NCBI GenBank assembly: GCA_947426945.1
Contig: CANEFX010000011.1
Coordinates: 1 to 64,000 of the forward strand
DNA from: an uncultured Bacillota bacterium
GTDB lineage: Bacteria > Bacillota > Clostridia > Oscillospirales > Oscillospiraceae
Direction of reading: 5' to 3'
Length of the DNA stretch: 64,000 bases
The notes below the pieces were generated by a model that was not told the origin of the DNA, searched no databases, and saw only the letters and a program-made list of their open reading frames with translations. Positions 4,778 through 25,091 of this stretch are shown here, piece by piece. The position numbers were made by a program, and so were the translations under genes. Each line of letters opens with the position of its first letter. Positions within the stretch are counted from its first letter, which is position 1.

Positions 4778-5032
4778 TTAGCGGCAGAATTCCGATTTGC
4801 GGAACAGAGACCGCAGAAGCACAATCCAGCCCCAGGAGACGGACAGGGCCGGCAGGCAGGACAGCAGGATCGCCTTGACCGGATGAATATCTGTAAAACA
4901 GATGGGGCCGAAGAACATAACGAACAGTACCACCATCATCACCAGCAGGGTGATTTTCTCCCGCCGGATGTTGGGGGGTGTGAGGAAAATCTTTTTCAGG
5001 TCGATCTCCGCTCTGGTGACTTCTTTTTTCAT
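4778..5032 (-). CDS. Small two-helix membrane protein of the lyase operon
   Basis: An 84-residue protein with a charged N-terminus (MKKEVTRAEIDLKKIF) and two hydrophobic segments (about residues 27-46 and 52-72) separated by a short loop, ending in a basic tail. The ATG lies one base after the stop of the lyase-like gene, and AGGAG sits inside the end of that gene, so it is translationally coupled as the third gene of the operon. I do not recognise the family. It could be an accessory subunit or regulator of the BCCT transporter encoded first in the operon, but that is inference from position only. Confidence 0.65.
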   Translation of the reverse strand: MKKEVTRAEIDLKKIFLTPPNIRREKITLLVMMVVLFVMFFGPICFTDIHPVKAILLSCLPALSVSWGWIVLLRSLFRKSEFCR

Positions 5033-5033
5033 A

Positions 5034-6566
5034 TCAGCTCAGTGCTCCTGTCACTTGCTCGGCCACCCGGATCAGCTTTCCGGAGTGGATAAAGTCCTTC
5101 AGGTACTCAATGCAGGGGTGAAGGAGCATGTCCTTCTCCATTACCGGAACGGTCTTGCCAATCTCAGCCAGCACTGCCGCCGTTGCGGGGGCCCGGTTCA
5201 CCTCAGGGTCCACAAACTGCTGCACCTGACAGACACTGAGCAGCTCAATGGCCAGCATGTACTCCAGCTTCTCCGCCATGGGGCCAGACTTTTTGCAGGC
5301 GTTGTAGCCCATTGCCACATAGTCCTCCTGGTTGCCGCAGGTGGGGGTGTTGTCGATGGTGGAGGGGGTGGCCAGCATCCGCATCTCGTTGAGCAGGCCC
5401 GCCTGGACATACTGGGGGATCATCAGCCCGGAGTTCAGCCCCGGATTTTTGATGCAGAAGTAGGGGTAGCCTGACAGAGAGCCGTCCACAATGCGGTTGT
5501 TACGCCGCTCAGACATCTTCGCCAGTCCCACGGCGGCGATACAGGCGCTGTCCATCTCCATGCCCACATAGGCCGAGTCGGCGTTGCAGGCGGAAATTAC
5601 ATCCTCATTGCCCTTCTCGGGCCAGATGATGGGGTTGTCACAGCAGGAGTTCATCTCTATCTCAATGGTCCGCTTTGCGTCCTCCAGCGTCTTGCGGGCC
5701 GCGCCGTGGAGCTGGGGGATGCACCGCAGGGACAGGGCGTCCTGCACCCGGCTGCCCTTGTACTTCTCCATAATGTCCGAGCCCTTCAGTATCCGCCGCA
5801 CATTCTCCGCCGCGTTGAGCTGGTCGGGGTGGGGGCGCACCGCCATCACCCGGGGGTCAAACGCGTTGATGACCCCTTTCATGGCCTCCAGGGACATGGC
5901 CCCTACGATGTCGGCGGACTTGGCGGCGTTGAGCATATCGTACAGGGCCAGGGCCGCCATAGCAGTGGCGGAGGTGGTGCCGGAGACCAGAGCCAGCCCC
6001 TCTTTGGAGCTGAGCGCCATAGGTTCCAGTCCGGCGCGCCTCAGTGCCTCGCTTCCATCCAGCAGCTCGCCCCTGTAGTAGGCTTTTCCACGGCCCAGCA
6101 GGACCAGGGCCATATGAGCCTCGGGAGAGAGGTAGCCCACACTGCCGTCTCCGGGGGCGTAGGGAGTCAGGCCGGCGTTGAGGAAGTCCCGGTACTTTTC
6201 CAGCACACACATCCGCACGCCGCTGTAGCCCTGGCCGATGTTTTGCAGCACCATGAGCATGACGCCCCGCACCCGTTCAATGCTCAAAGGCTCTCCCACG
6301 GATACTGAGTGAGACAGGATGATGTTCTCCTGGAGCTGGGCGGTCTCCTCCTTGTCAATAGCCTTGGTACACAAGGCGCCGAAGCCGGTGGTGACGCCGT
6401 ACATCACCCGTTCCTCCTCCACCCACTGCTCCACCAGGGCACGGGAGCGGTTCACCCGCTCTATGTACGCGGGGGAAAACTCTACCCTCCGGCCAAACCG
6501 GGCTACGGAAACGAAGTCGTCCAGAGTGATGGGGTTACCCAAAACAAGCGTTTTTATTTTTTCCAT
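5034..6566 (-). CDS. Aromatic amino acid lyase homologue lacking the MIO triad; predicted ergothionase
   Basis: A 510-residue protein plainly homologous to histidine ammonia-lyase: YGVTTGFG near the N-terminus, then RVQDALSLRC, DNPIIW, GLNSG and NQEDYVAMG. The cofactor segment is altered. Ordinary HutH reads GSVGASGDLAPLAHM; here it is GSVGYLSPEAHM (6110-6155), so the Ala-Ser-Gly that forms the MIO electrophile is absent. The SGGNFH stretch is also changed, to SACNADSAY. Ergothionases (ergothioneine trimethylamine-lyases) are known MIO-free members of this superfamily that release trimethylamine and thiourocanate. The gene starts 15 bases after a betaine-type transporter, which supports such a substrate; hercynine or another betaine is possible. 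GAGGTG precedes the ATG. It should not be annotated as an ordinary hutH. Confidence 0.7.
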   Translation of the reverse strand: MEKIKTLVLGNPITLDDFVSVARFGRRVEFSPAYIERVNRSRALVEQWVEEERVMYGVTTGFGALCTKAIDKEETAQLQENIILSHSVSVGEPLSIERVRGVMLMVLQNIGQGYSGVRMCVLEKYRDFLNAGLTPYAPGDGSVGYLSPEAHMALVLLGRGKAYYRGELLDGSEALRRAGLEPMALSSKEGLALVSGTTSATAMAALALYDMLNAAKSADIVGAMSLEAMKGVINAFDPRVMAVRPHPDQLNAAENVRRILKGSDIMEKYKGSRVQDALSLRCIPQLHGAARKTLEDAKRTIEIEMNSCCDNPIIWPEKGNEDVISACNADSAYVGMEMDSACIAAVGLAKMSERRNNRIVDGSLSGYPYFCIKNPGLNSGLMIPQYVQAGLLNEMRMLATPSTIDNTPTCGNQEDYVAMGYNACKKSGPMAEKLEYMLAIELLSVCQVQQFVDPEVNRAPATAAVLAEIGKTVPVMEKDMLLHPCIEYLKDFIHSGKLIRVAEQVTGALS

Positions 6567-6581
6567 GTGAAAACACCTCAG

Positions 6582-8159
6582 TTATGCTTCAATCTGGTCC
6601 ACGCTGTCCACAATATCCTTCTTGGTCTCGGGGTCAAAGAAAAAGACCTTGAAGGCGGCCACCACCTGGAAAATAAATACAATCAGTACTACAAAGCCGC
6701 CGCATGCAGCCAGATATTTCACGCCGTCCACGCCCTGGGCACCGCCGCCAAAGGCTACCATGATACACGCAATAACACCGATGGACACGCCCCAGACAAT
6801 CTTCTGCCAGATGGCGGGCTCCTCGTCGTGTCGGGCTCCCTTGGTGCATAGGGCGGCAATGGTGGTGGACATGGTATCCGCCGTAGTGGAGAAGGCGGCG
6901 ATAAGAGCCAGAATAATGACGGGAATGATCACCATGCCCAGGGGGACATTTTTTAGGAATTCCCACAGTCCGGCAGTAGCCCCTCCGTCCTGAATGGCAG
7001 TGATGATGTCAGCATTGCCGCTCTTCTGCCATTCCAGGGCGGTGGAGCCCCAGACCGAGAACCACACAAAGCCGAAGGAGGCGGGCAGAATCCAGTTGAC
7101 GATGAGGAACTGCCGCACAGTGCGTCCGTAGGCTATAATAGCGAAGAAAATACCCATCAGGGGGGCGTAAGCGATCCAGATGGCCCAGTCATACATGGTC
7201 CACCAGGTGACCAGGGCAGAGCCGCCCACGGTATAGGGGTCGAAGCCCCACATCCAAAACCGGTCCAGCCAGTAGCCCAGGCCCACGTTGGCCATATTTA
7301 GGATATAAATGGTGGGGCCGATGATGAACAGCAGGATCAGCAGGACGTAGAAAATTTTCGAAGTCAGGCCAGCCAGCCACTTGATGCCCTTGTCGATGCC
7401 GGTAACCGAGGCTGCAGTAAAGGTGATGGTAATGATGGCGGTGAGAGCAATCCAGACAATGGGGCCCTGGGCCACACCGTAGGCGGAATAGAGGCCGGAG
7501 CCAATGAGGGCCAGCCCGGCGCCCAGAGAGGCGGCAAGGCCCAATGCGATGGCCAACACGGACAGTACATCCACCAGCACCACCCAGATGCCCTGGGTTA
7601 CTTTTTCCCCAAAGATGGGAGTAAGGGAGGCAGCCACGGACAGGTCCTTTTTGCGGTTAAAGTACATGTAGGCGATGAGCACACCGGAAAGGGCGTACAT
7701 GGCGTAGGGGATAAAGGTCCAGTTGTAGAAGCAGCGGCCCATTGAGAATAACTCGGCCTCCTGAGTCAGGGGCACAATGCCGTAGCCGTCCAGCTCACCA
7801 TAAATGTTGCCGTAGTAAATGAGCACCTCGTTAACGCCGTAGGTAATCAGGCCGGTGGCAATGCCGCCGGTGAGGGTCATGGCAAACCAGGAGCCGAAGG
7901 AGTGCTTGGCCTTGGCCTCCGGGCCGCCGAAGCGGATCTTGCCCACCCTGGTGAACATCAGCAGGCAGGCCAGCAGCAGGGTGACCATAGCTACGATTTG
8001 GTACAGCCAGCCAAAGTTGCTCAGCGACCAGTCAAACACTGTGTAGGTAACGCTGGTCAGCCAAGTGTTATTAACGATGCCCAGCAAGGCTGCGCCGCCG
8101 ATGACCACAAAGCAGGGGATGAATACGTTCCATCGGATTGGCTTGTTTTCATGTTTCAT
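6582..8159 (-). CDS. BCCT-family betaine/carnitine/choline-type transporter
   Basis: A roughly 525-residue, 12-helix secondary transporter of the BCCT family, which carries quaternary ammonium compounds. The family signature region appears as WWTMYDWAIWIAYAPLMG followed by GRTVRQF. The open frame extends to 8255, but GGAG at 8167-8170 lies seven bases before an ATG at 8159 (MKHENKPIRWNVF). The extension would also run through the sigma-54 promoter at 8223-8239, so 8159 is preferred. It is the first gene of an operon with the MIO-less lyase, which suggests that it imports that enzyme's substrate, predicted to be ergothioneine or a related betaine. Ion coupling cannot be told from sequence. Confidence 0.9.
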   Translation of the reverse strand: MKHENKPIRWNVFIPCFVVIGGAALLGIVNNTWLTSVTYTVFDWSLSNFGWLYQIVAMVTLLLACLLMFTRVGKIRFGGPEAKAKHSFGSWFAMTLTGGIATGLITYGVNEVLIYYGNIYGELDGYGIVPLTQEAELFSMGRCFYNWTFIPYAMYALSGVLIAYMYFNRKKDLSVAASLTPIFGEKVTQGIWVVLVDVLSVLAIALGLAASLGAGLALIGSGLYSAYGVAQGPIVWIALTAIITITFTAASVTGIDKGIKWLAGLTSKIFYVLLILLFIIGPTIYILNMANVGLGYWLDRFWMWGFDPYTVGGSALVTWWTMYDWAIWIAYAPLMGIFFAIIAYGRTVRQFLIVNWILPASFGFVWFSVWGSTALEWQKSGNADIITAIQDGGATAGLWEFLKNVPLGMVIIPVIILALIAAFSTTADTMSTTIAALCTKGARHDEEPAIWQKIVWGVSIGVIACIMVAFGGGAQGVDGVKYLAACGGFVVLIVFIFQVVAAFKVFFFDPETKKDIVDSVDQIEA

Positions 8160-8222: not shown

Positions 8223-8239
8223 AGCAAATTTCAAGCCAA
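8223..8239 (-). promoter_or_regulatory. Sigma-54 (-24/-12) promoter of the transporter/lyase operon
   Basis: Read on the minus strand the site is TTGGCTTGAAATTTGCT. It matches the sigma-54 consensus YTGGCACGRNNNTTGCW at all but two positions, with the invariant GG and GC at correct spacing. Transcription would start near 8211, about 50 bases before the BCCT start codon. The divergent gene encodes a sigma-54 activator and the next encodes sigma-54, so context and sequence agree. Confidence 0.8.
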
Positions 8240-8401: not shown

Positions 8402-8430
8402 TTGACAACTTTTTAAATTTCCGGTAAAAT
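8402..8430 (+). promoter_or_regulatory. Sigma-70 promoter of the sigma-54 activator gene
   Basis: TTGACA (8402-8407), exactly 17 bases, then TAAAAT (8425-8430). The start point would be near 8437, 20 bases before the GTG start codon. The nearby palindromes would allow autoregulation. Confidence 0.75.
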
Positions 8431-8455: not shown

Positions 8456-10102
8456 GTGCTCTATGATATTCTGTTTACGCTGGACCGGGAGGGGAGGCTT
8501 GCCTCAGTGGATTGGGGCAGCAAGGAGGCGGAGGACCTGTACCGGGATCTCTTTGAGAGCTGGGCCGCTGACCGTCGTCAGGCGGATACCGTCTTCGCCC
8601 TGCCTCCGGATGGGGACAACGGCCAGCTTATTTGGGAGGAAAGCGCTTTTCATTTTCAATTTCTCCCAGCCCCGGAGGGCGGGCGATGGCTGATGCTGAA
8701 GCGAAAGGATCTCCGTCCCTATCTTTTGGCCCGGGCCCTGGACCAGCTTACCGACGGAGTACAGATCTATGACAAAAATGCCTGCGCCGTCTATTTCAAC
8801 AAAGCCAGCCGGAGAATTTCCCACATCCCCAGCGGAGTAAGCGTGGAAGGAAGACACCTTCTGGACCTGTACAATCTGGACGAGCAGGTGAGCACAACCA
8901 TGACAGCCCTCCAGACCCAGGCTCCGGTGATTGACCGGGTGGACAGCTTCCGGGTCAATGATTTTAGCCAGGTCCCCATTGCCTCGGCCAACACCTCCTA
9001 TCCTATTTTCCGGAAGGGGGAGCTGCTGGGGGCGGTGGTATTTGAGCAGACGGCGGAAATTGTGGACAAGAACATTAAAAAGATGGAGGCTACCCGGCAA
9101 GCCCTCAGCTCGTTTCAGAATAAGCCGCCCAAGGTCAGCTTTTCGGGCTACACCTTTGATAATGTAATCGGCAGCTGCCCCAAGCTGCGGGAGGCGGTGG
9201 AGCTGGCCCGGAGGGTGGCCCCCCAGAACAGCCCCATCCTTCTGGTGGGAGAGACCGGGACGGGCAAGGAAATTTTTGCCCAGAGCATCCACCGCGCCAG
9301 CCGCCGGGGCGGAAAATTTCTGGCCATCAACTGCGCCGCTGTTCCGGAGACCCTCATTGAGAGTCTGCTTTTCGGTACCAAAAAGGGCAGTTTCACCGGC
9401 AGCGAGGATAAAACGGGTTATCTGGAAGAGGCCTCCGGCGGCACCTTGTTTCTGGATGAGCTGAACTCCATGAGCCTGGCCATGCAGTCCAAAATTCTGC
9501 GGGTCCTCCAGGAGAAAACCTTCCGCCGAGTGGGGGGCGGTCGGGACCTGAAGCTGGATGTGCGTATCATATCCTCCTGCAACGAGGATCCCTTTAAGGC
9601 CATTTCAGAGAATACCTTCCGCCGGGACTTGTTTTACCGGCTTTCCACAGTGATGATTGAGCTGCCCCCTCTCCGGGAACACCTGGAGGACCTGGAGGAG
9701 CTGATCCGCTACCACTTGGAGGCAACTGCCTATCAGTTCGTCCGGGCTGTCACCCATATTGACCCGGAGGTCTGCGCCCTGCTGCGGTCCTACCACTGGC
9801 CGGGCAATGTGCGGGAGTTGTTCCACGTGCTGGATTATGCCCAAAATGTCACGGATTCCGGGACGATGGAGGTGCGGCACCTGCCTCCTTATCTGCTGAA
9901 GCGCCGGGCCTCTGCTCCCGCCGCCCAGGCCGTCGACTTCTCCCAGAAGGACCTCCAGGGCCTGATGGATGAGTATGAGCGGGAAGTCATTGCCCAGGCA
10001 CTGGAGCACTGCGGCTATAACATCTCTCAGACCGCCAGGACCTTGGGCATTCTCCGTCAGAGCCTGCAATACCGCATCAGAAAATATGGATTGATCTTTT
10101 AG
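8456..10102 (+). CDS. Sigma-54-dependent transcriptional activator (PAS-AAA+-Fis)
   Basis: A 548-residue enhancer-binding protein. The N-terminal half contains a PAS-like sensor region (about residues 85-190). The central AAA+ domain has Walker A GETGTGKE, the sigma-54 contact loop GSFTGS (usually GAFTGA), Walker B GGTLFLDE and an arginine-finger region RRDLFYRLS. The C-terminus has a Fis-type HTH (NISQTARTLGILRQSLQYRIRKYG). No receiver domain is present, so it probably senses a small molecule directly, in the manner of RocR. The GTG start follows a G-rich ribosome binding site at 8444-8449. It is divergent from the BCCT/lyase operon, whose -24/-12 promoter it most likely activates. Confidence 0.9.
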   Translation: MLYDILFTLDREGRLASVDWGSKEAEDLYRDLFESWAADRRQADTVFALPPDGDNGQLIWEESAFHFQFLPAPEGGRWLMLKRKDLRPYLLARALDQLTDGVQIYDKNACAVYFNKASRRISHIPSGVSVEGRHLLDLYNLDEQVSTTMTALQTQAPVIDRVDSFRVNDFSQVPIASANTSYPIFRKGELLGAVVFEQTAEIVDKNIKKMEATRQALSSFQNKPPKVSFSGYTFDNVIGSCPKLREAVELARRVAPQNSPILLVGETGTGKEIFAQSIHRASRRGGKFLAINCAAVPETLIESLLFGTKKGSFTGSEDKTGYLEEASGGTLFLDELNSMSLAMQSKILRVLQEKTFRRVGGGRDLKLDVRIISSCNEDPFKAISENTFRRDLFYRLSTVMIELPPLREHLEDLEELIRYHLEATAYQFVRAVTHIDPEVCALLRSYHWPGNVRELFHVLDYAQNVTDSGTMEVRHLPPYLLKRRASAPAAQAVDFSQKDLQGLMDEYEREVIAQALEHCGYNISQTARTLGILRQSLQYRIRKYGLIF

Positions 10103-10122: not shown

Positions 10123-11478
10123 ATGAAATTATCGCAAGTACAGTCCCAACAACTGAATTACCAGCAGATACAAGGGCTGAAGCTGCTGCAAATGAGCTCC
10201 TGGGAGCTGGAACAGTATTTGCGGGAGCTGGCACAGGAGAACCCTTTGATTGACCTGGAGTCAGAAGCACCCTCCGAGGAAGAACAAGATGAGCTTCTCC
10301 GTTACCTGCAATGGCTGGAAGATAACGATTACCAAAACCTCTACTGCCAGCAGGTGAGCGAGGATGAGATGGACCCTCTGTCCCAGGTAGGGACAGAGGG
10401 TGGGCTGGAGGAGACTTTATTCCGTTTTTTGTCCCGCCAGCTCTACACGATGGACCTGGAGGAGGACTTGGCGGACATGGTACGCTATCTGGCCTCCAGC
10501 CTGGACAGCCGAGGCTATTTGACTGTCCCTCTGTCGGAGCTTGCCCGGAACGGCCCCTTTCCGCTTTCCCGGCTGGAGCAGGCTCTGGAAATCCTGCGCG
10601 GGCTGGAACCCGCCGGGGTTGGCGCGGAGAACCTCTCCCAATGCCTGGAGCTGCAGCTGCGCCGCATTCGGGAGGATGGTCCCGCTCTGGCCATCGTGCG
10701 CGGCTACCTTGTCCCGCTGGCCAGACGGCATTACTCCTCCATTGCTGCCAAGCTGAATATCTCAGTGGTCCAGGTGAAACAGGCAGAGGCCGTCATCCGG
10801 GAGCTGGACCCGAGGCCCGGCGCTGTTTTTGAGTGTCCGGAGCAGATACCCTATATCCTGCCGGACATTTTTGTGGACGAGAACGGCGGGAGGTATACTG
10901 TTCGGGCGCGCAGGTCGGGACAGCCGCCCTTTCAGATCAACGGCTACTACCGTAAGCTGCTGCTTCAGTCCCAGGACCGGCAGGTTAGGGAGTATTTGCA
11001 GGGAAAGCTTCAGCAGGCCGAAAGTGTTCTGCGGGCGGTGGACCAGCGGGAGAGCACCCTGCTCCGGTGCGCTCAGGCCATTGCGGATGTCCAGGCGGAG
11101 TTTTTTCGCTGGGGACCCCAAGCCCTGCGGCCTATGCGGATGGCCGACATAGCTAAGACGCTGGGCCTCCACGAATCTACCATCAGCCGGGCGGTGCGGG
11201 AAAAATACGTCCAGTGCCCCCAGGGTGTGTACCCTATGAATTACTTCTTTTCCCGTGGTGTGACCTCAAAAAAGAACGGCCCGCAAATCGGAGGAGTAGC
11301 GGCCAGGCTGTTGCTGAAGCAGCTTATTGACCAGGAGGATCATCAAAATCCGCTGTCCGACCAAAAGCTCGCCGCGCTTCTGGCTCAGGCCGGCTGCCCC
11401 GTTTCCCGGCGGACAGTGGCAAAATACCGCGAAGAGATGGATGTTCCCGATATGTCTGGCCGAAAAGTGCGATTTTAG
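10123..11478 (+). CDS. rpoN: RNA polymerase sigma-54 factor
   Basis: A 451-residue sigma-54. The glutamine- and leucine-rich region I (QSQQLNYQQIQGLKLLQMSS), acidic region II, core-binding region and HTH (MADIAKTLGLHESTISRAV) are in order. A C-terminal RpoN-box-like SRRTVAKYRE recognises the -24 element. It begins 20 bases after the activator gene and is probably cotranscribed with it. An rpoN placed directly behind one specific activator is noteworthy because sigma-54 normally serves several regulons; whether it is the only copy in the genome cannot be seen here. A terminator follows. Confidence 0.95.
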   Translation: MKLSQVQSQQLNYQQIQGLKLLQMSSWELEQYLRELAQENPLIDLESEAPSEEEQDELLRYLQWLEDNDYQNLYCQQVSEDEMDPLSQVGTEGGLEETLFRFLSRQLYTMDLEEDLADMVRYLASSLDSRGYLTVPLSELARNGPFPLSRLEQALEILRGLEPAGVGAENLSQCLELQLRRIREDGPALAIVRGYLVPLARRHYSSIAAKLNISVVQVKQAEAVIRELDPRPGAVFECPEQIPYILPDIFVDENGGRYTVRARRSGQPPFQINGYYRKLLLQSQDRQVREYLQGKLQQAESVLRAVDQRESTLLRCAQAIADVQAEFFRWGPQALRPMRMADIAKTLGLHESTISRAVREKYVQCPQGVYPMNYFFSRGVTSKKNGPQIGGVAARLLLKQLIDQEDHQNPLSDQKLAALLAQAGCPVSRRTVAKYREEMDVPDMSGRKVRF

Positions 11479-16794: not shown

Positions 16795-19700
16795 TTACGG
16801 GTGCCTTTCACGAAGTTCATGCTCTATTTCAATTGTTTCAATGCGTGGGGGTAGCTTGTTTAAACAAGAAAGACACCAGCGGCAGTGTTCTTCCTCAGAG
16901 GCGGGCCAAAATGCCTCCAATTCGTTGCAGCTTTGCCGGCGCTTCTTCATCATCTGGCGAATCTTCCACGACAGGTACAAAGTAATGCCTTTCCACCAAG
17001 GGGAGCCTATCGTCTCACAAAGCTCCAAGGCCTCCGCCAACTTTTCAGCCGCTTTGGAGTAGTTCTCTTCTTGCGCGTCGTAGAACGCCAAATAGGATAA
17101 TGCAATAGGGTATTCGCTGTATTCATGGGAGTCTGTATAAATCTCCACCGCATAACGAAACAACTGGCGTGCCTCTAAGAACTGCCCATTCTGGTAGGCA
17201 GCAACTCCGTAATTGGTGTAGATTACTGCGGCGCCCGGGTAATAACCCCGGCTCCGGTTATATGAAATCGCCTGATCATAGTAGTGAAAAGCGGAGAAAT
17301 AGTCGCGCTCTAAGCGGTAGCTTTCGGCCATGTAGTTGTAAACTCCGGCAATATTGATGGCGTATTTTCCGTTTCGGTTCGAATCCAATGCCAGGAAGGT
17401 CTGGATAGAGCGATCCAAAAGCGTCCTGGCCTCCTCATAACGTCCCTCCATAATGCGCAGCAGTCCGGACAAACGCAGGTAGATGCCGTATTCTCCGGTA
17501 GACTCCTTTCCCCACAGCAGATTCCTGACAATATCAAGGTGCTCCTCCATCACCTGGGTGCAGAATGTCTGTATTCCGTAATAGATAAATTGAAGATGTG
17601 CGTGGACCGATAAATACCAGTCTCCGGCTTCCTGGCAATGTTCCAGAAGGCGCTGAAGAATCTCCAGGCCCCTGGAATAAAGCCCGTCGTGAATACAATA
17701 ACGTCCCTCTGTGTGGAGGAGAATCATTTCCAGACGATTCAATTTTTGCTGAAGCTCTCCGTAGCTGGTATGCCGCAGAGAATTCAATTCAATCTCCAAT
17801 GTCTGGAAATATGCTGTCAGACCTTCGTGCCCTTGGGTCTCGGAATCCGGATCGGCAGTCAGGGTCGGGAGCAGTTCATAACACAGTCCGGCGTAGGCGT
17901 TCAAAGATAAAACCTGATATTGGAAGGTTTTGAACCGGTCGCCCCCTGATGCGTAATGATGCCGCAGCAGGCTATAAACGGGCGTCTTATTGTCCTTCAT
18001 GCTCTCCTCCAGATATTGTGCCACGCGCAAATGGAGGATGCGCCGCCCGGACTCGGATTGGCGTTGAGATACAATATCCTTGATCCACTCGTGGGCAAAG
18101 GCGTATTCAAGCGTTCCGTTTTGGGAGGATTCTGCCAGCAGCTTTTTCTGTGTCAGTTGATGGCAGAGATAGGTTAGGGAAAGAGTTTCCTTGCGGAGGA
18201 TGGATGCTAATGCGTCAAATGAAGCATGCCCCACAAAGACGGCAATTAAATCGAGCAGCTGCCGCTCGTCAGTGGACAGGACAGAAAGTCGGTAACCGAT
18301 GATATCTTCCGGTGTTCGGGGGAGCTCAGACGGAGCCTGTCCGTCTTTTAGAGAGTCCAATATCTGAACCAACAGGAGGGCGTTTCCTCCGGTATTTTGA
18401 AAAATCTGCTCTGCCAGTCCTTCCTCGGGTTGCTGTTGAACATAATGGGCCAAAAAACGTATGGTTTCTTCCCGGGTAAAGCTTTGAAGAATACATTTTT
18501 CCAACACATTGTCCCGTTGTCCCGCGTCTGCAAACTGCCTGATGTGGGAGGGGAGGATGTCCCTGCTGGTGCAGATTACTGCGGTATCCAGCTCTTGAAG
18601 GCGCCGCAGAAAGAGAGACAGCAATTCCGCGCTGGCGCCGTCCATCCAATGAATATCTTCAAAAATCAGAAGAATTGGCGTCTGCTTTGCGATGATGGAA
18701 AAAATCGCAAGCAGGCTGCGCTGTATCACATGATAGCCGGCCTGGAGCGGATAGTCCTGATCCGAGACGGTTAATTCAGTTTCCAGATCGGGAGCCAAAC
18801 AGGGAAAAAGAGACGCCGCTGTTTTTACATAGACTTCCGGAATCGAAATATGACGCAGCTCCAGCTCCGCAGTCAAAGTCAGCATAATGGAGTTCCATGG
18901 AGACAGGAAACCGTTTGTCTCCGTCTGGTAGCAGAAGCTGCGGCAGATCAGCCAATCGGAAAAATCGTAGTGCTCCAGAACGTAGTCCAGCAGATAGGTC
19001 TTCCCCACGCCCGCTTCGCCTTGCAGCAAAATACAGGGCCGCCGTCTTTCCCTGGAAGCTCCCAGTGCCAGAAGCTTGCGCAGCGCCTGTCCCTTTCCAA
19101 GCAGCAGGCTGTCTGAATCCTCCTCCGGACGGTAAGTAGAGGCGTTCCACTGATCCACAATTCGATAGTAAAAGGTTGTCGTCTCTTTCAATGGTGAAAT
19201 GCCGAACTCCGCGGAGAGATTTTTGCACAGCTCGTGGTACAGGCCGATGGCCTTGCGGAACCGCTGCTGGGCGCAGTAAATGCGCATCAGTAAAACCACC
19301 ACCCCCTCCTCCAGCGGGTCCTGTTCCACATAGGCTTGGCAGTATCGGGCCGCCTGCTCTAAATTACCCTGCTGAAAAGCGTTCCGCCCTATGTCCAGCA
19401 GGCTTTTGAGATACCGGTTCAGGAGTGAGACGCGTTCCTGGGTCAGCCAATCCTCGAAGGGCTGTGCTTTAGGGACGGTAAAATCCTTTAAAAATTCTCC
19501 TCCATATTTATCCGGATTCCCGCTTTTTAAAAATTCCAACACATCACAGTCCATTTCCAGGGCCGGATCCAGCGTCAGCATGCTGCGATGTCCGCCCAGA
19601 AATGGATCGCAGCCCAGTTCTTTTCGGATGGAATAGATGGCGTGGCGCAGATTTTTTGATGCGGTCTGGAAGTTTACATCCGGCCACAACAGCTCCACAG

Positions 19701-19833
19701 CCTGGGCACGGGATATCTTTCCGTTGTAAATCAGATAATACAGCAGGGCTTCTGCCTTTTTATAGGGCAGAACCAGTTTTTTCCCATTTGTCAGAATCAG
19801 GGGAGCATCGAATAATTTACATTGAATCAGCAC
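16795..19833 (-). CDS. SARP/AfsR-type transcriptional regulator with ATPase and TPR domains
   Basis: A 1012-residue regulator. An OmpR-like winged HTH occupies about residues 1-90 (KKAEALLYYLIYNGKISR, LRHAIYSIRKELG). A bacterial transcriptional activation domain follows (95-240), then a STAND-type ATPase with Walker A LQGEAGVGKT (near 272) and Walker B ILLIFEDIHWMDG, then TPR-like repeats to the C-terminus. The GTG start is preceded by AGGAGG ten bases away. Proteins of this build act as ATP-dependent pathway activators that bind direct repeats overlapping the -35 region. It is divergent from the flavin reductase, permease and hydroxylase genes, whose promoter carries such repeats, so it is their probable activator. 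Confidence 0.85.
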   Translation of the reverse strand: MLIQCKLFDAPLILTNGKKLVLPYKKAEALLYYLIYNGKISRAQAVELLWPDVNFQTASKNLRHAIYSIRKELGCDPFLGGHRSMLTLDPALEMDCDVLEFLKSGNPDKYGGEFLKDFTVPKAQPFEDWLTQERVSLLNRYLKSLLDIGRNAFQQGNLEQAARYCQAYVEQDPLEEGVVVLLMRIYCAQQRFRKAIGLYHELCKNLSAEFGISPLKETTTFYYRIVDQWNASTYRPEEDSDSLLLGKGQALRKLLALGASRERRRPCILLQGEAGVGKTYLLDYVLEHYDFSDWLICRSFCYQTETNGFLSPWNSIMLTLTAELELRHISIPEVYVKTAASLFPCLAPDLETELTVSDQDYPLQAGYHVIQRSLLAIFSIIAKQTPILLIFEDIHWMDGASAELLSLFLRRLQELDTAVICTSRDILPSHIRQFADAGQRDNVLEKCILQSFTREETIRFLAHYVQQQPEEGLAEQIFQNTGGNALLLVQILDSLKDGQAPSELPRTPEDIIGYRLSVLSTDERQLLDLIAVFVGHASFDALASILRKETLSLTYLCHQLTQKKLLAESSQNGTLEYAFAHEWIKDIVSQRQSESGRRILHLRVAQYLEESMKDNKTPVYSLLRHHYASGGDRFKTFQYQVLSLNAYAGLCYELLPTLTADPDSETQGHEGLTAYFQTLEIELNSLRHTSYGELQQKLNRLEMILLHTEGRYCIHDGLYSRGLEILQRLLEHCQEAGDWYLSVHAHLQFIYYGIQTFCTQVMEEHLDIVRNLLWGKESTGEYGIYLRLSGLLRIMEGRYEEARTLLDRSIQTFLALDSNRNGKYAINIAGVYNYMAESYRLERDYFSAFHYYDQAISYNRSRGYYPGAAVIYTNYGVAAYQNGQFLEARQLFRYAVEIYTDSHEYSEYPIALSYLAFYDAQEENYSKAAEKLAEALELCETIGSPWWKGITLYLSWKIRQMMKKRRQSCNELEAFWPASEEEHCRWCLSCLNKLPPRIETIEIEHELRERHP

Positions 19834-19938
19834 TTACAGTTTTCCTCCTAGCCGCATCCTTGGCACGTAACGCGTAAACTGTACAAATAATATTTTATGT
19901 TTAGTCCGTTTTTTTACAAGCCTTTTTTTCAAAATTCC

Positions 19939-19955
19939 GTCGAAAAAACGTTGAA
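19939..19955 (-). promoter_or_regulatory. Candidate SARP site near the regulator gene
   Basis: On the minus strand TTCAAC, five bases, TTCGAC: two similar hexamers with an 11-base period, like the repeats at 20014-20030. They lie about 105 bases upstream of the regulator's GTG and could mediate autoregulation. No well-placed -10 follows, so confidence is low. Confidence 0.35.
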
Positions 19956-20013
19956 TTCCGGCTGTATTTTTCTTTTTGTTTTTAAAACAGCCAATTTTTT
20001 GTGAAGCCGCAGC

Positions 20014-20046
20014 TTCAACAGATTTTCAACGTGGCTGTGATATACT
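20014..20046 (+). promoter_or_regulatory. SARP-type promoter of the hydroxylase operon
   Basis: Two perfect direct repeats TTCAAC (20014-20019 and 20025-20030) with an 11-base period lie 10 bases upstream of a -10 box TATACT (20041-20046). No normal -35 exists. SARP activators are known to bind direct repeats of 11-bp period next to the -10 element, which fits the divergent regulator gene. Confidence 0.6.
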
Positions 20047-20161
20047 ACGAAAAACCGTTGGGCACGACAAAAGAATAGGGAGGGTATGATCGCAACGGCA
20101 TAGTCCAATGGGGAAAAGTAATTCTGATATTTTGATGATGATGCGAAAAGGAGTGTGTGTT

Positions 20162-20833
20162 ATGATTTTTGATCCTGTGAGTAATGCGTTTCCAGCTGAA
20201 CTGAATCCGTTCAAATCAATTTCCATTCCCCGCCCAATCGGTTGGATTTCGACTGTTAATAGAGAAGGGGTTCACAATGTGGCTCCATTCAGCCAAGTAA
20301 TGAACCTGACTTTTGATCCGCCTTATATTGCGGTTGGAATCAATGAACCAATCAAACGCAAGGATACTTGTGTAAACATTGAGGAAACTGGTGAATTTGT
20401 ATATAATGTCGCGACGTACGATTTGCGTAAGCAAGTCGATATCACGTCTCTTGACTATGCGCCTGATGAAGACGAATTTGAGATTGCCGGATTGACAAAA
20501 GTACCAGCTGTGAAAATAAAGCCATGTCTGATTGGCGAATCTCCGATTTCTATGGAATGCGTCTATCATTCTACCGTTCGGATTCCCGGAAACACATATG
20601 GAACTTTTGATTTGATTATTGCGCGTGTTGTTATGATTCACATAAAAGATGAATTTCTGATGGACAATGGGAAAATAGATGTTTTAAAAATTAGGCCGCT
20701 GTGCCGCCTGGGATACCACGATTATTCCTCTATTGAGAGTATCTTTGAAATGAAACAGACCCCTAAGACAAAAGGCTTTGATGGATTGTCTGGCACTGTA
20801 TTAAATGGACAGGAAAGAGAAGGGGGCTTTTAA
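20162..20833 (+). CDS. Flavin-reductase-like (split-barrel flavin-binding) protein
   Basis: A 223-residue protein with the N-terminal pattern of the flavin reductase-like family: FKSISIPRPIGWISTVNREG, then NVAPFSQVMNLTFDPPY and KDTCVNIEETGEFVYNV. Such proteins bind FMN and either reduce flavin with NAD(P)H or act as small flavoenzymes. The frame opens at 20108, but AAAAGGAG eight bases before the ATG at 20162 marks the start. Base composition is visibly lower in GC than the flanking genes, as in the next gene. It is first in the operon with an anion permease and a molybdenum hydroxylase. Its partner is unknown. Confidence 0.8.
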   Translation: MIFDPVSNAFPAELNPFKSISIPRPIGWISTVNREGVHNVAPFSQVMNLTFDPPYIAVGINEPIKRKDTCVNIEETGEFVYNVATYDLRKQVDITSLDYAPDEDEFEIAGLTKVPAVKIKPCLIGESPISMECVYHSTVRIPGNTYGTFDLIIARVVMIHIKDEFLMDNGKIDVLKIRPLCRLGYHDYSSIESIFEMKQTPKTKGFDGLSGTVLNGQEREGGF

Positions 20834-20834
20834 T

Positions 20835-22283
20835 ATGGCGCAAAGAAAGCGTTTGACCTACGTGCTCCATTGTGTGATAGGTATATGCTGCATGTTCGGA
20901 TTCGGCTTGCTGCCTGCGGTCAGCCCCATTACTCCCGCCGGCATGAAAATTTTAGGGGTTTTTATTGGCAGTATTTATATGTGGTCGTTTATAGATATCC
21001 TATGGCCCAGCCTTTTGGGATTGGTTGCTCTATGCTTGACCGAATATGCGCCGATGGGAACCATTATGCAAACATCATTTGGAGATAGCGTATCCATTTT
21101 GATTATATTGAGTATGGTCTTATTTGGCGCAATTCAAGAAGCTGGTGTTACAAACTATATCAGCAGATGGTTTCTTACCCGTAAGATTATTAACGGACGG
21201 CCCATTGTATTTAGTTTTATTTTTATTTTTTGCACCTATGTACTCGCAGCCTTGTCTGCCAGCATACTGCCTGCAATTCTCTTTATGTGGGCTATCTTAT
21301 ATGGGGTTTTGAGCGATGTAGGCTATCAGAAAGGAGACAAATATGCTACTTTAATGGTAATAGGAACTTATTTTGGCGCAATGGTTGGTCATGGAGCCAA
21401 GCCCTTTGTTGCGACTGGGCTGATACTGACCGGCGCATTCACAAAGGTGACAAATATTGAAATTAATTATCTCACATATATGCTATATGGCATTATTATG
21501 GCTGTCCTCAGCATTATTGTATACTGCCTGATAATGAAATATATTTTTCGGCCTGATACAAGCAAAATTGCAAATATTTCAGCGAATCATTTTGAAAAAG
21601 ATGTGCTTCCGCCAATGAAAGCAAAACAAAAAGTTCTGTTTGTCTCTTTATTTGCATTTTTGCTGCTGATGCTGATTCCCAGCATTTTCCCCAAAGACAT
21701 CTGGTTCATTGCGTTTTTGAATAAAATTGGAAATAACGGCATCGCTTTGATGTTTTTGGGAGTGCTTTGTATGATACATGTGGATAAAGAACCCGTTATT
21801 GACTTTATTAAAATCGCATCTAAATATGTATCATGGGATATTTTCTGTTTGGTTGCATTAGTTATGGTAATTTCCGGTGCACTTACAGATGAGTCCACCG
21901 GTATCATTAATTTTTTAACGGTAATGTTGGATCCTATCCTAGGTGGAAAGTCTCCGTTTGTTTTTGCGGTTCTTGTACTGGGGTTCGCTCTTGTTTTTAC
22001 AAATTTTACCAATAATACAGTTTTAGGTGTTATGATTTTACCAGTCCTTTATAGCTATGCAAAAATAAATGGAGCCAATCTTGCTGGAATCGGGGTAGCG
22101 ATGATTTTTATGGTTCACTATGCAATTATTACCCCAGCGGCCTCAATCTATTCCGCTGTGCTGCATGGCAACTATGAATGGGTTGACTCCAAACAGGTGG
22201 TAGCCTATACCTCGATTGTTTTGGTGTTTATTTATCTGCTGTACATTGTTGTGGGTATTCCGCTTGCGAACGCTATGTTCTAA
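20835..22283 (+). CDS. SLC13-type (DASS/ion transporter superfamily) permease
   Basis: A 482-residue integral membrane protein with about 11-12 hydrophobic helices, resembling SLC13/ArsB-type anion permeases. The gene begins 1 base after the flavin-reductase-like stop, with AGAAGGGGG before the ATG at 20835 rather than the earlier in-frame ATG at 20805. A second-half motif NFTNNTVLGVMILPV resembles the conserved transport-domain hairpin of the family. It presumably imports the carboxylated or anionic substrate handled by the downstream hydroxylase. Codons are AT-rich, suggesting a separate origin from the xdh genes. Confidence 0.75.
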   Translation: MAQRKRLTYVLHCVIGICCMFGFGLLPAVSPITPAGMKILGVFIGSIYMWSFIDILWPSLLGLVALCLTEYAPMGTIMQTSFGDSVSILIILSMVLFGAIQEAGVTNYISRWFLTRKIINGRPIVFSFIFIFCTYVLAALSASILPAILFMWAILYGVLSDVGYQKGDKYATLMVIGTYFGAMVGHGAKPFVATGLILTGAFTKVTNIEINYLTYMLYGIIMAVLSIIVYCLIMKYIFRPDTSKIANISANHFEKDVLPPMKAKQKVLFVSLFAFLLLMLIPSIFPKDIWFIAFLNKIGNNGIALMFLGVLCMIHVDKEPVIDFIKIASKYVSWDIFCLVALVMVISGALTDESTGIINFLTVMLDPILGGKSPFVFAVLVLGFALVFTNFTNNTVLGVMILPVLYSYAKINGANLAGIGVAMIFMVHYAIITPAASIYSAVLHGNYEWVDSKQVVAYTSIVLVFIYLLYIVVGIPLANAMF

Positions 22284-22335
22284 TTGATCGGCAAGAATTT
22301 ATAAACCCTTGGTATGATATGTCAGGAGAGATTTC

Positions 22336-24594
22336 GTGAAAACTGTCGGCTCCAGCCGCCCAATCCACGATGCCTGGGCTAAGGCGGCTGGCTACACAAA
22401 ATATACCGGAGATATCAGGCTGCCCGGCATGGTCTATCTGTGCCTGGTCCGCAGTACAATTCCCCACGGACGGGTCAAGGCGGTTCATCCGGAGAAGGCA
22501 CTGGCTCTGCCGGGAGTCTGCGGGGTGCTGCACTGTTTTAACACCACCCAAAGGACTTTCAACCGCTACCGTTCCCGTTTTTCCCAGGATGAGTTGCCCA
22601 ACGAGGAGCGGGCTTTCACCGACTATGTGCGCTTTGTGGGCGACCGGGTGGCCGTTGTAGCCGCTGAGAGCCAAGCTTTGGCGGAGAAAGCCGCACGCCT
22701 GGTAGAGGTGGAGTATGAGGAACTGCCTTACTCAATCGGCTTTGACGACACGCTGGAGGGACAAAACTGTTTGCCGGGGGAGGAGCCCGTCCGGGATGAG
22801 GTAATACTGGAAAATGGCACATTTCCGCAGGATAACGGCATGATCGAGGTGGATAGCTTCACCGAGCTGCCACGCCTCCACCACGCCGCCATGGAGCCCA
22901 ACGCCTGTGTGGCCGATTACGACCCTTACCAGCAGCAGCTGACCCTGTACAGTCCCAATCAGGCGGTTCACGGGATCCGTGTTGTGGTAGCAAATTATTT
23001 GGAGATGCCGTTTCACAAAGTACGGGTGGTCAAAGCGGCAATGGGCGGTTCTTTTGGGGCCAAGCAGGAGTGGTTTGTGGAACCGGTGGCGGCGCTGGCG
23101 GCTAAAATGCTGGGTCGCCCAGTTAAGCTGGTATACAGCAGAGCGGAAGCTATGACCGGCGCTATTGTCCGGGGAGCTGTAAAAGCTTGTGTCCGGGGGT
23201 TGTTTACCCCAGAGGGCAAAATCAAATCCCTGGATATGGATCTGATTCTGGATGCTGGGGCCTATGTGGGCAATTCCAGTGACTACATTCGTACATTGTA
23301 CAGCAAGCTGTTCCGCTGTTACTATGTGCCTCACGCCCGGTATCACGCCCGGGTCATCTCCTCCAATACCCCTGTGGCCGGCGCGTACAGAGGGTGGTCC
23401 GCGCCGGAAGAGGCGTTGATTCTGGAGCGCCATTTGGACGCTGCCGCTCACAAACTGGGGATGGATCGAGTAGAGCTGCGTCGACGCAATGTGCTGCTCC
23501 CGGGAGATATTGATTTGAGAACCGGGGTACCGCTGGAGGAAATTCGTATCCGGGAGGCGCTGGATCGGGGAAGGGAGCTGTTCCGCTGGAATCAGCTGAA
23601 ACAGGAGGACGCTGATTTTAACGCCTCCAATGAGCGATACCGCCGGGGCACAGGCGTGGGCTGCGGCGGCCACGGAAGTACATATTTTCCGCGCCATGAC
23701 GACTTCGGCGAGGGCTGGATCACCATGAATGAGGACGGAACCATTCAGCTGAAGATCACCACCCACGACCACGGCTGCGGAACGGTGACCATGCTGAAGA
23801 TGGTGGTGGCCGAGGTGCTGGATATTCCGGACAGCGATGTTTACCTTGCGGAAGGCGACACCGCCAACACCCCCATCGACTTTGGTTGCTTTGCCAGCCG
23901 GACTACATTTGTTCTGGGACGCACCGCTGTGGAGACCGCCGGGGCCCTGAAAACGGTCCTGCTGGAGCGGGCCGCGGCAATTTTTCATCAGCCCATGGAG
24001 CAGCTTTATGTGGAGGGCGGAGCCGTGCGAAACCGGGAAAACCCCAATCTGGTTTGGCCCTATGCTGAAGTGGCCAGACAGAGTATGCTCCAGCTCAAGC
24101 GCAATGTGTCGGCTCAGGCCCAGTTCAACAATGTGACGAACCCAGGTGTTACAGGGGCCCACTTCGCCCATGTCGAAGTGGATACCTGGACAGGCTACAC
24201 CAGAATCCTGGATTATTTGGCCGTTCAGGACATCGGACAGGCCATCAACCCGGCTATGTGCGAGGCGCAGATCCAGGGCGCCGCCCAGATGGGCTGCGGG
24301 GCCGCGCTGCGGGAAGAGATGGTGGTTCAGAAGAACGGTCAATGTACGTCCAGCCTGTCCCAATATCATCTGTTCCTGGCTCCTGATCTGCCTGACATCC
24401 AGGTAGAGCTGATTACGGACGGCCGCTCCACCGAAGGACCTTTTGGCGCCAAATCAATCGGTGAGGTGTGTTATGTCCCCGCTGCTCCCGCCGTTTGCGG
24501 TGCGGTGAACGACGCTCTGGGAAGCCAGTTAGGTGCTCTTCCCTTTACACCTGATTGTGTACTAAAATATTTGGCAAGGGAGCGAGAGACATGA
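22336..24594 (+). CDS. Molybdenum hydroxylase large subunit (xanthine dehydrogenase family)
   Basis: A 752-residue catalytic subunit binding the molybdopterin cofactor. Typical segments are RSTIPHGRVKAVHPEKAL near the N-terminus, MGGSFGAKQE, GAYRGWSAPEEALILE, HDHGCGTVT, and FGAKSIGEVCYVP, which carries the expected catalytic Glu. The GTG start follows AGGAGAG. Its stop overlaps the next ATG (ATGA). The family hydroxylates xanthine, hypoxanthine, nicotinate, other N-heterocycles or aldehydes. Neighbouring genes do not decide among these, although an anion permease argues for a carboxylated substrate. Confidence 0.85.
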   Translation: MKTVGSSRPIHDAWAKAAGYTKYTGDIRLPGMVYLCLVRSTIPHGRVKAVHPEKALALPGVCGVLHCFNTTQRTFNRYRSRFSQDELPNEERAFTDYVRFVGDRVAVVAAESQALAEKAARLVEVEYEELPYSIGFDDTLEGQNCLPGEEPVRDEVILENGTFPQDNGMIEVDSFTELPRLHHAAMEPNACVADYDPYQQQLTLYSPNQAVHGIRVVVANYLEMPFHKVRVVKAAMGGSFGAKQEWFVEPVAALAAKMLGRPVKLVYSRAEAMTGAIVRGAVKACVRGLFTPEGKIKSLDMDLILDAGAYVGNSSDYIRTLYSKLFRCYYVPHARYHARVISSNTPVAGAYRGWSAPEEALILERHLDAAAHKLGMDRVELRRRNVLLPGDIDLRTGVPLEEIRIREALDRGRELFRWNQLKQEDADFNASNERYRRGTGVGCGGHGSTYFPRHDDFGEGWITMNEDGTIQLKITTHDHGCGTVTMLKMVVAEVLDIPDSDVYLAEGDTANTPIDFGCFASRTTFVLGRTAVETAGALKTVLLERAAAIFHQPMEQLYVEGGAVRNRENPNLVWPYAEVARQSMLQLKRNVSAQAQFNNVTNPGVTGAHFAHVEVDTWTGYTRILDYLAVQDIGQAINPAMCEAQIQGAAQMGCGAALREEMVVQKNGQCTSSLSQYHLFLAPDLPDIQVELITDGRSTEGPFGAKSIGEVCYVPAAPAVCGAVNDALGSQLGALPFTPDCVLKYLARERET

Positions 24595-25091
24595 AACTGT
24601 CCTTCTGTGTAAACAATCGTCCGGTTCAGCTTGAAACCGACCCGGATCGCCGTTTGCTGGATATCCTGCGGGAGGACTTGAGCCTCACGGGCACCAAGGA
24701 GGGATGTGCGGAGGGCGAGTGTGGGGCCTGTACTGTCCTGCTGGACGGGGAGGCGGTTCACTCCTGCCTGACTTTGGCCATCCAGCTGGGAGGCCGGCAC
24801 GTGGTGACCATCGAGGGGTTGTCCGAGACCGGCGAGCTGGACGTTCTGCAAAAAGCCTTCGTAGAGGAGATCGCGGTACAATGCGGTTTCTGCACTACCG
24901 GCATGATTATGTCCGCCAAAGCCCTGCTGCTGAAAAATCCGGCTCCCACGAAGGAAGAAATCCGAGTCGCCTTATCGGGCAATATCTGCCGCTGCTCCGG
25001 TTATGTGCAGATTGTGCGTGCGGTTGACAGGGCCGCTCATGAACTTCGGGAGGTGGCATATGGAAAGCCTGACGCCAAAAACACTGGATGA
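24591..25091 (+). CDS. Molybdenum hydroxylase 2Fe-2S subunit
   Basis: A 166-residue iron-sulfur subunit passing electrons from the molybdenum centre to FAD. The plant-ferredoxin-like cluster has CAEGECGACTVLLDG with a fourth Cys in HSC. The helical cluster domain has CGFCTTGM and NICRCSGY. The frame is open from 24555, but the ATG at 24591 overlaps the stop of the large subunit as ATGA, so I start there. All eight cluster cysteines are present, indicating a functional enzyme. Confidence 0.92.
   Translation: MKLSFCVNNRPVQLETDPDRRLLDILREDLSLTGTKEGCAEGECGACTVLLDGEAVHSCLTLAIQLGGRHVVTIEGLSETGELDVLQKAFVEEIAVQCGFCTTGMIMSAKALLLKNPAPTKEEIRVALSGNICRCSGYVQIVRAVDRAAHELREVAYGKPDAKNTG

Follow-up and report, generated by a model that had tools for sequence, protein, structure and literature searches.

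A histidine ammonia-lyase homologue without its cofactor segment, encoded beside a BCCT transporter, is a candidate hercynine trimethylamine-lyase

What might a histidine ammonia-lyase (HAL) homologue do when it lacks the residues that build the enzyme's electrophile and is encoded next to a betaine-type transporter? The question is raised by a 64,000-nucleotide stretch of DNA from an uncultured bacterium of the Oscillospiraceae (assembly GCA_947426945.1, contig CANEFX010000011.1, positions 1 to 64,000), the whole of which we call the window. HAL needs the 4-methylideneimidazole-5-one (MIO) electrophile to expel ammonia, and ergothionase eliminates trimethylamine without MIO. A first-pass annotation, made from the sequence alone, had proposed an ergothionase operon that imports ergothioneine or a related histidine betaine. 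The sequence, the loss of MIO, the clade, the gene neighbourhoods, a promoter-like motif and the hut-type genes form the basis of the reading given here. It is highly probable that an imported histidine betaine undergoes MIO-free elimination, and we favour hercynine as the substrate and urocanate as the product, with a probability of roughly 0.54. More broadly, we lean towards a second class of cofactor-free, HAL-fold trimethylamine-lyases, unlike ergothionase, which would open a branch into the hut pathway (hercynine to urocanate and on through HutU and HutI, with release of trimethylamine). This class would span Clostridia, Negativicutes, Bacillales, Acinetobacter, Synergistota and Thermodesulfobacteriota, would often include paralogues for further betaines (in Acinetobacter perhaps ergothioneine) and would be a source of trimethylamine in the gut. 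The two genes at issue are:

5034..6566, minus strand: MIO-less protein of the aromatic amino acid lyase family (Pfam Lyase_aromatic), 510 residues, proposed hercynine (histidine-betaine) trimethylamine-lyase
6582..8159, minus strand: BCCT-family transporter of the betaine/carnitine/choline type, 525 residues from the ATG at 8159

Both open reading frames were confirmed at the coordinates first annotated, and their products score 552.5 bits with Pfam Lyase_aromatic (cut-off 27.3) and 360.1 bits with Pfam BCCT (cut-off 27). The same-strand pairing that had been noted stands, with 15 nt between the BCCT stop and the lyase ATG. The cofactor segment of the lyase, exactly as first read, is GSVGYLSPEAHM (residues 141-152, window 6146-6111, minus strand) in place of the Ala-Ser-Gly-Asp of HAL, and the alignment confirmed that the Ala/Ser-Ser-Gly tripeptide from which HAL forms MIO is absent. 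This loss is neither a sequencing slip nor chance: positions 143-145 (Pseudomonas putida numbering) are deleted and position 142 is Tyr in 58/58 MIO-less rows, and Ser-Gly-Asp is present in 119/119 rows classed as HAL. The rows were classed by the MIO motif itself, with near-copies kept, and these motif counts therefore describe the classes; the loss is backed independently, because a tree built without the MIO-loop columns recovers the clade.

We compared active sites in an alignment of 119 HAL, 58 window-type and 7 ergothionase-type rows, each of at least 420 residues (an odd HAL-like row, L172, was set aside), and in a second alignment with 16 ergothionase-type rows. Alignment with ergothionases and HutH, which the first-pass annotation had called for, revealed changes shared by both MIO-less types at three positions. 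Position 280 is Tyr in 119/119 HAL rows and Leu in 50/58 window-type and 16/16 ergothionase-type rows; position 330 is His in 119/119 HAL rows and Asp or Glu in 58/58 and 16/16; and position 195 is Asn in 119/119 HAL rows and Ser in 39/58 and 12/16. Y53, H83, R283 and E414, which we take to make up the imidazole and carboxylate site of HAL, are kept in the window family (58/58 rows for Y53, H83 and E414, and 57/57 readable rows for R283). Their equivalents in the window lyase are Y56 (Y53 of P. putida HAL), H86 (H83), R281 (R283) and E414, and its changed residues are S195, L278 (Y280) and D330 (H330). Because these four residues are kept, the site probably still suits an imidazole amino-acid skeleton, and the region around MIO and the amino group appears to have been rebuilt similarly in both MIO-less clades; the acid at position 330 would face the trimethylammonium. 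The columns specific to ergothionase differ. The window family has other residues in place of K63, N76, D189 and N197 (HAL numbering), each of which occurs in 15-16 of the 16 ergothionase-type rows; position Td383 is Lys in 11/16 ergothionase-type rows and Tyr in 58/58 window-type rows; and the MIO loop is shortened by one residue in the ergothionase type versus three in the window clade.

An AlphaFold model of the lyase (mean predicted local distance difference test score 92.5) has the complete HAL fold. It is closest to HAL (PDB 1B8F; template modelling score 0.93, root mean square deviation 1.7, 35% identity), and ergothionase lies slightly further away (0.89). The window lyase resembles HutH (1B8F) in its complete fold and in Y53, H83, R283 and E414; it differs in lacking Ala-Ser-Gly-Asp, which precludes MIO formation in the usual way, in having S195, L280 and D330 (HAL numbering), and in coexisting with a canonical HAL. 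With the ergothionase of Treponema denticola (PDB 6S7J, 6S7Q) it shares a HAL fold without MIO, Leu at 280, Ser at 195, an acid (E327 in ergothionase) replacing HAL H330, and the kept imidazole- and carboxylate-binding residues, and trimethylamine elimination would be expected of both.

We searched genomes at three ranks (order, 295; family, 250; class, 391) and read motifs in the fetched loci. The motif GSVGY[LI] occurs in the window's genome, in a genome of the window's own genus (G329, three dispersed copies) and in G790, G598, G669 and G738, and in broken or fragmentary lyases of G480 and G867; the other fetched lyase matches with a readable motif are A/S-S-G lyases at 37-44% identity. Among named genomes, a scan confined to the best 80 of at least 589 relatives yielded 45 loci of the window family (L077-L118, L120, L122 and L136), the rest being A/S-S-G lyases. 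Three of these 45 read GSVAYL, L098 and L118 (incomplete) were assigned by 94-96% identity, and many end at contig ends. Their record titles name, among others, Oscillospiraceae, Lachnospiraceae and Synergistaceae, the genera Clostridium, Acidaminococcus, Peribacillus, Paenibacillus, Lysinibacillus, Brevibacillus and Acinetobacter, and Candidatus Adiutrix; judged in this way, the 58 window-type rows come from at least four phyla.

The tree comprised 76 rows thinned from 185, with the MIO loop and five further columns excluded and with one characterised ergothionase, that of T. denticola. A single branch separates each of three groups from the remaining rows: the window clade (45 rows; Shimodaira–Hasegawa-like approximate likelihood ratio support 100), HAL (24 rows; 79) and the ergothionase type (7 rows; 97). 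The ergothionase group is recognisable from L072, whose lyase stands beside molybdoenzyme subunits and scores 544 bits to T. denticola ergothionase; the lyases of L071 and L073 group with it. When rooted with one tyrosine aminomutase, with the very long row L113 omitted, the tree joins the two MIO-less clades at a support of 25 only; MIO may have been lost once or twice. By similarity score the window lyase is closer to HAL (304.5 bits) than to T. denticola ergothionase (188.8 bits). Closer grouping with the MIO-dependent lyases had been named by the first-pass annotation as damaging to its own prediction; the scores do show it, and the rooted tree speaks to it with that same low support.

Within carriers, the window-type lyase is not the cell's HAL, because a separate lyase with an A/S-S-G motif is present in 27/27 picked carrier genomes. 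Both MIO-less types occur together in at least nine genomes or loci (G738, G900, G669, G895, G896, G897, G911, L082 and L089), which suggests that they do different jobs.

We then considered what the neighbouring genes say about the product. Within the 45 loci the lyase is accompanied by an activator gene in 17, a BCCT carrier in 16, an MFS carrier in 12, an SSS carrier in 6 and a small protein in 12; at least one of the three carrier types is present in 34/45. Neighbours of the hut type are hutU (13 loci), hutI (12) and hutG (5), and the loci linked to hutU or hutI belong to Bacillales, Acinetobacter, Lachnospiraceae and Acidaminococcus. Within the stretch covered, a canonical HAL was not seen in 12/13 hutU loci. 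Nine of the 13 HutU proteins were scanned against profile models: hutU was the best model for 9/9, eight passed its cut-off and the ninth ends at a contig end, and none (0/9) reached the cut-off for thiourocanate hydratase or S-methyl-thiourocanate hydratase. The Bacillales and Acinetobacter proteins score 987-1020 bits with the hutU model versus 688-712 with thiourocanate hydratase. G901-G903, all Peribacillus, each yielded a single hutU, and it lies close to the MIO-less lyase, with the canonical HAL elsewhere.

The strongest pointer to urocanate as the product is a contrast within Paenibacillus sp. Root444D2 (G900). There, an ergothionase-type lyase (locus L191) is found with thiourocanate hydratase (1022.9 bits, cut-off 930), thiohydantoin desulfurase, ErtD and ErtE, and a window-type lyase is found with hutG, hutU, hutI and a gene of the glutamate dehydrogenase family. 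If urocanate is the window-type product, hercynine follows as the substrate. The aerobic ergothioneine utilisation cluster of L191 (gene names from NCBIfam) starts with a MIO-less lyase of the superfamily to which the window lyase belongs; it differs in that its downstream genes are absent from the window operon. Paenibacillus (L191) and Acinetobacter (L192) have them in clusters of their own.

The window's own genome (91.7% complete) contains two PF00221 genes, the window lyase and a canonical HAL, and an ergothionase of the T. denticola type was not found in it. The earlier statement that no urocanase-like gene is present holds for the window only: a different contig of the genome (C1) carries genes of the hutU and hutI types. 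The single hutU-family gene scores 425.5 bits with hutU and 302.1 of the 930 required for thiourocanate hydratase; in the same cluster lie hutI (466 bits, cut-off 298) and a cyclodeaminase-like gene that falls under its cut-off. Because the only hutU-family gene is under the thiourocanate hydratase cut-off, urocanate would be usable in this genome and thiourocanate would have no visible onward route via that enzyme. A search of this genome for an MttB/trimethylamine methyltransferase gave no match.

From these comparisons we infer substrate, products, roles of single residues and regulation as follows. The BCCT carrier would import a histidine-derived betaine, and the HAL-fold lyase would cleave it without MIO; with trimethylammonium as the leaving group, an electrophile would no longer be needed and MIO becomes dispensable. 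Y56 would take the beta proton, H86 and E414 would grip the imidazole and R281 the carboxylate, and D330, L278 and S195 would give space to the trimethylammonium and stabilise it. Hercynine (N-alpha-trimethyl-L-histidine), the likeliest substrate, would be split into trimethylamine, which would leave the cell, and urocanate, which would feed the hut route encoded on C1 (HutU, HutI and the cyclodeaminase-like gene). A divergently encoded activator with sigma-54 would turn the operon on when the betaine is present.

Several observations weigh against this reading. The window has no hutU, and 32/45 loci show none in the stretch covered. The long anaerobic HutU proteins (L083, L086, L099, L136 and that of the window's own genome) are far from all three models (426-455 bits for hutU, or 432-455 without the own genome's protein; 302-316 for thiourocanate hydratase), and the hutU model is not strict, as thiourocanate hydratases also pass it (708 bits, cut-off 375); the naming of these long forms therefore rests on the rank of the models. 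A hutU-family match over the cut-off is present in 25/27 carrier genomes versus 51/391 genomes of the class sample, an enrichment that would favour the reading but is confounded, as hutU and HAL go together, and that we counted for little. L083 has a canonical HAL in the locus, and the genome of L086 has one about 14 kb past hutU on the same contig. The contrast of lyases and partners comes from one genome, Root444D2; an ergothionase-type lyase in Polaromonas has no such annotated neighbours, and neither do the molybdoenzyme-linked ergothionase-type lyases. L086, L089 and L136 pair the window-type lyase with a xanthine dehydrogenase (XDH)-like molybdoenzyme that elsewhere accompanies ergothionase, and L136 shows no ergothionase. 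N195 is retained in 18/58 window-type rows and Y280 in 4/58. Tandem paralogues are common, with two or three members per locus in L080, L081, L082, L091, L095, L115 and L136.

Acinetobacter sp. ANC 4558 (G898) is the most direct counter-case. Its locus L192 (5852-11375) is a complete cluster of the thiourocanate-to-glutamate type, with genes for thiourocanate hydratase (1021 bits), thiohydantoin desulfurase, ErtE and ErtD. Of three PF00221 genes in this strain one encodes a canonical HAL and the other two encode window-type lyases, of which L097 lies beside hutU, hutI and hutG and L101 stands alone. This strain may import thiourocanate, or one of its lyases, perhaps L101, may be an ergothionase of a new kind; L101 is the candidate if ANC 4558 makes thiourocanate itself. 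Because of this result we lowered the probability of the hercynine reading from 0.60 to 0.54. Hercynine is still favoured for the window gene because L097, not L101, groups with the window, in a 13-row group (support 95; not starred in the rooted tree). Taken with the molybdoenzyme links, the tandem paralogues and the rows that keep N195 or Y280, ANC 4558 speaks against a uniform clade.

Among the alternatives, the one that survives best, which we judge unlikely though well short of negligible, is an ergothionase built independently: imported ergothioneine would yield thiourocanate and trimethylamine, and thiourocanate would be excreted or passed to other gut bacteria. The MIO loss, the common changes at 280, 330 and 195 and the BCCT partner would all fit it, as would the molybdoenzyme subunits, also found with ergothionase, beside the L086, L089 and L136 relatives, and it would account for ANC 4558, which has the downstream ergothioneine enzymes but, besides its canonical HAL, only window-clade lyases. 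Turnover of ergothioneine to thiourocanate in the gut is also reported in a passage of PMC13405746. It is opposed by the separate clade, the replaced K63, N76, D189 and N197 with Tyr at Td383 in 58/58 rows, the own genome's hutU-family gene below the thiourocanate hydratase cut-off and the genomes that carry both lyase types. As a family name, known ergothionase is ruled out by clade, score and residues, and survives as a rival function. Of the predicted ergothionase operon, what stands is elimination of a quaternary amine by ergothionase logic; what falls is the name, given the other clade, the 304.5 versus 188.8 bits, the missing ergothionase columns and relatives whose HutU lies under the thiourocanate hydratase cut-off. 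Of the two substrates it had offered, the related histidine betaine is now the favoured one.

A second alternative, which we consider slightly less probable again, holds that the betaine lyases of the clade cover a range of substrates (hercynine, ergothioneine, S-methyl-ergothioneine and further onium compounds of the histidine type) and that the window enzyme acts on one other than hercynine or ergothioneine, or on several equally. Two or three members per locus in seven loci, the three dispersed copies in G329, the variation at positions 195, 280 and 329 and the Acinetobacter case are what such a clade might look like; the grouping of the window with the hut-linked L097 (with the support given above) and the single copy in its own genome speak for the narrower hercynine reading. 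A histidine ammonia-lyase that works without MIO, or that replaces the ordinary HAL, is very improbable: the nearest solved structures are HALs and hut genes neighbour relatives, but a canonical HAL is present in 27/27 picked carrier genomes, the MIO-forming residues and the N195, Y280 and H330 of all HAL rows are changed, and the lyase falls under both HutH model cut-offs (TIGR01225, 505.8 against 539.15; NF006871, 523.8 against 524), although the second is missed by 0.2 bits only, which tells against our reading. An ordinary HAL was rejected on the MIO loss, these cut-offs and the coexisting canonical HAL. Least probable of all is a catalytically dead regulatory or structural remnant, for which the lost electrophile and the broken copies in L074 and L075 might speak, since Tyr53, His83 and Glu414 are invariant in 58 rows from at least four phyla and the linkage to transporter and activator recurs.

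If hercynine is the substrate, this compound gains a degradation route; a passage of PMC7653990 names hercynine as the main metabolite of ergothioneine in dosed people. In the open-licence literature we found no report linking hercynine with trimethylamine and urocanate, or histidine betaine with terms beginning urocan-, and no title listed for hercynine and lyase names a hercynine lyase; reports elsewhere are possible. If histidine-betaine lyases are widespread among proteins that look like HAL, ergothionase-based surveys would miss a source of gut trimethylamine, and the window gene is possibly such an overlooked ergothionase relative in a gut bacterium and an extra source of gut trimethylamine. 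The two MIO-less clades, changed at the same three active-site positions, would also offer a natural test of the purpose of MIO.

Further features of the operon and its surroundings are:

4778..5032, minus strand: third operon gene, 84 residues (KIFLTPP ... SWGWIVLLRS), conserved in eight relatives and overlooked by the first-pass annotation
8223..8238, minus strand: sigma-54 (-24/-12)-like promoter TGGCTTGAAATTTGCT, 9/11 consensus positions, 63 nt ahead of the BCCT ATG
8402..8430, plus strand: sigma-70-like promoter TTGACA-17-TAAAAT ahead of the divergent activator gene, 11/12 matches; the overall count of such sites in the region equals the level in shuffled sequence
8456..10102, plus strand: sigma-54-dependent activator (AAA+, Fis-type helix-turn-helix, sub-threshold PAS match), divergent from the operon, proposed betaine-responsive regulator
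10123..11478, plus strand: RNA polymerase sigma-54 factor RpoN, adjoining the activator (TIGR02395, 388 bits, cut-off 277)

Besides the third gene, the sigma-54-like promoter, the divergent activator and rpoN had also been missed at first. The -24/-12-like site has a p value of 0.025 on shuffling of the upstream region, and the bare pattern occurs at chance level across the 64 kb. In loci carrying the activator we scanned the DNA ahead of lyase or BCCT units, 19 regions in all, and 15/19 (14/18 without one of the duplicate pair L067/L122) have sites of at least 9/11. The four regions without a good site (scores 6 or 7) count against the proposed regulation: those of L065 and L093 lie upstream of a lyase whose BCCT gene already has a site, and the others are L096 and L079, a near copy of the window. 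An RpoN homologue is also close to the lyase in L065, L077 and L080. The ATG at 8159 is favoured as the BCCT start because the promoter-like site at 8223-8238 sits within a longer open reading frame that starts with TTG.

The transporter is the sole BCCT protein found in its own genome. It shares with BCCT transporters for glycine betaine, carnitine and choline the Pfam domain and a WxxYDWAxWIAYAP segment, and differs from those with a known substrate in falling in a divergent subgroup with no assigned substrate; it is under all five NCBIfam BCCT cut-offs that it matched (best 300.7, 650 needed; general bcct model 270.1, 407.55 needed). A passage of PMC12689799 describes a slight rise in ergothioneine production on deletion of betP in Corynebacterium glutamicum, from which its authors infer that the BCCT protein BetP may import ergothioneine. 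The third gene starts 1 nt past the lyase stop in the same direction. Its product has 49-90% identity to eight relatives, with an invariant K-I-F..PP start and an invariant S-W.W near the end; a Pfam search with it gave no match. By eye it resembles a small membrane protein and is possibly an accessory of the transporter. A different protein, of 181 residues, accompanies an SSS carrier and a second small-protein type near the lyase in L084, L086, L088, L096 and L115; the L086 copy had no Pfam match.

Other observations concern the clade and its neighbourhoods. Window-type lyase copies are broken or internally shortened in L074 (562-2083) and L075 (458-1726). The lyase of L113 (2541-4133) diverges strongly, carries the ergothionase-like motif GSVGEAD and forms the longest branch of the tree; its Bacillus host also has window-type copies. 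Outside the counts, L188 (7965-9539), on a plasmid of a cockroach-gut deltaproteobacterium, encodes a window-type lyase (GSVGYLAVEGH, Tyr at 280) that is annotated as histidine ammonia-lyase and lies behind a sodium:solute symporter. L136 (2-13321) holds three window-type lyases, a BCCT gene, a hutU-type gene and a molybdoenzyme, with no ergothionase in the stretch. In L071 (7250-16925, G738) lyases of both the ergothionase and the window type share a single cluster with molybdoenzyme subunits and BCCT, and L069 (1-7741, G598) is similar, with a lyase fragment at the contig end where L071 has the ergothionase type; these clusters look as if two histidine betaines were handled together.

MttB-superfamily methyltransferase genes were seen beside window-type lyases only in L070 (7037-8440; PF06253, 398 bits) and L096 (3491-4912, by similarity), in keeping with use of a quaternary amine or trimethylamine. 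In the Bacillales loci L106, L107, L108, L111, L114 and L116 a gene of the N-methyl amino acid oxidase type (L107 copy scanned) lies near the lyase and an MFS carrier, possibly a demethylating side branch. The hutU-like genes of 600-650 bits in G669, G893, G895, G897 and G904 were considered as partners of window-type lyases and rejected, as their clusters contain a hutI-like gene and a lyase of the canonical A-S-G kind instead. In Clostridium-type genomes (L204-L207 and L209; G904) a second hut-like cluster groups a canonical A-S-G lyase with a hutI-like gene and with hutU-like proteins, one or two per cluster and each about 570 residues long; the one scanned, from L209, had S-methyl-thiourocanate hydratase as its best model, far under the cut-off.

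Elsewhere in the window, 16795-25914 holds a molybdenum hydroxylase operon that encodes a DASS-type carrier and three XDH-like subunits (large, FeS and FAD); a gene for a 1012-residue BTAD/TPR regulator runs divergently from it. The operon contains no lyase, and one of its genes, with no NCBIfam match, looks like a flavin reductase. In other respects it is similar to the ergothionase-linked molybdoenzyme clusters, to which its large subunit is 29-39% and its regulator 26-31% identical.

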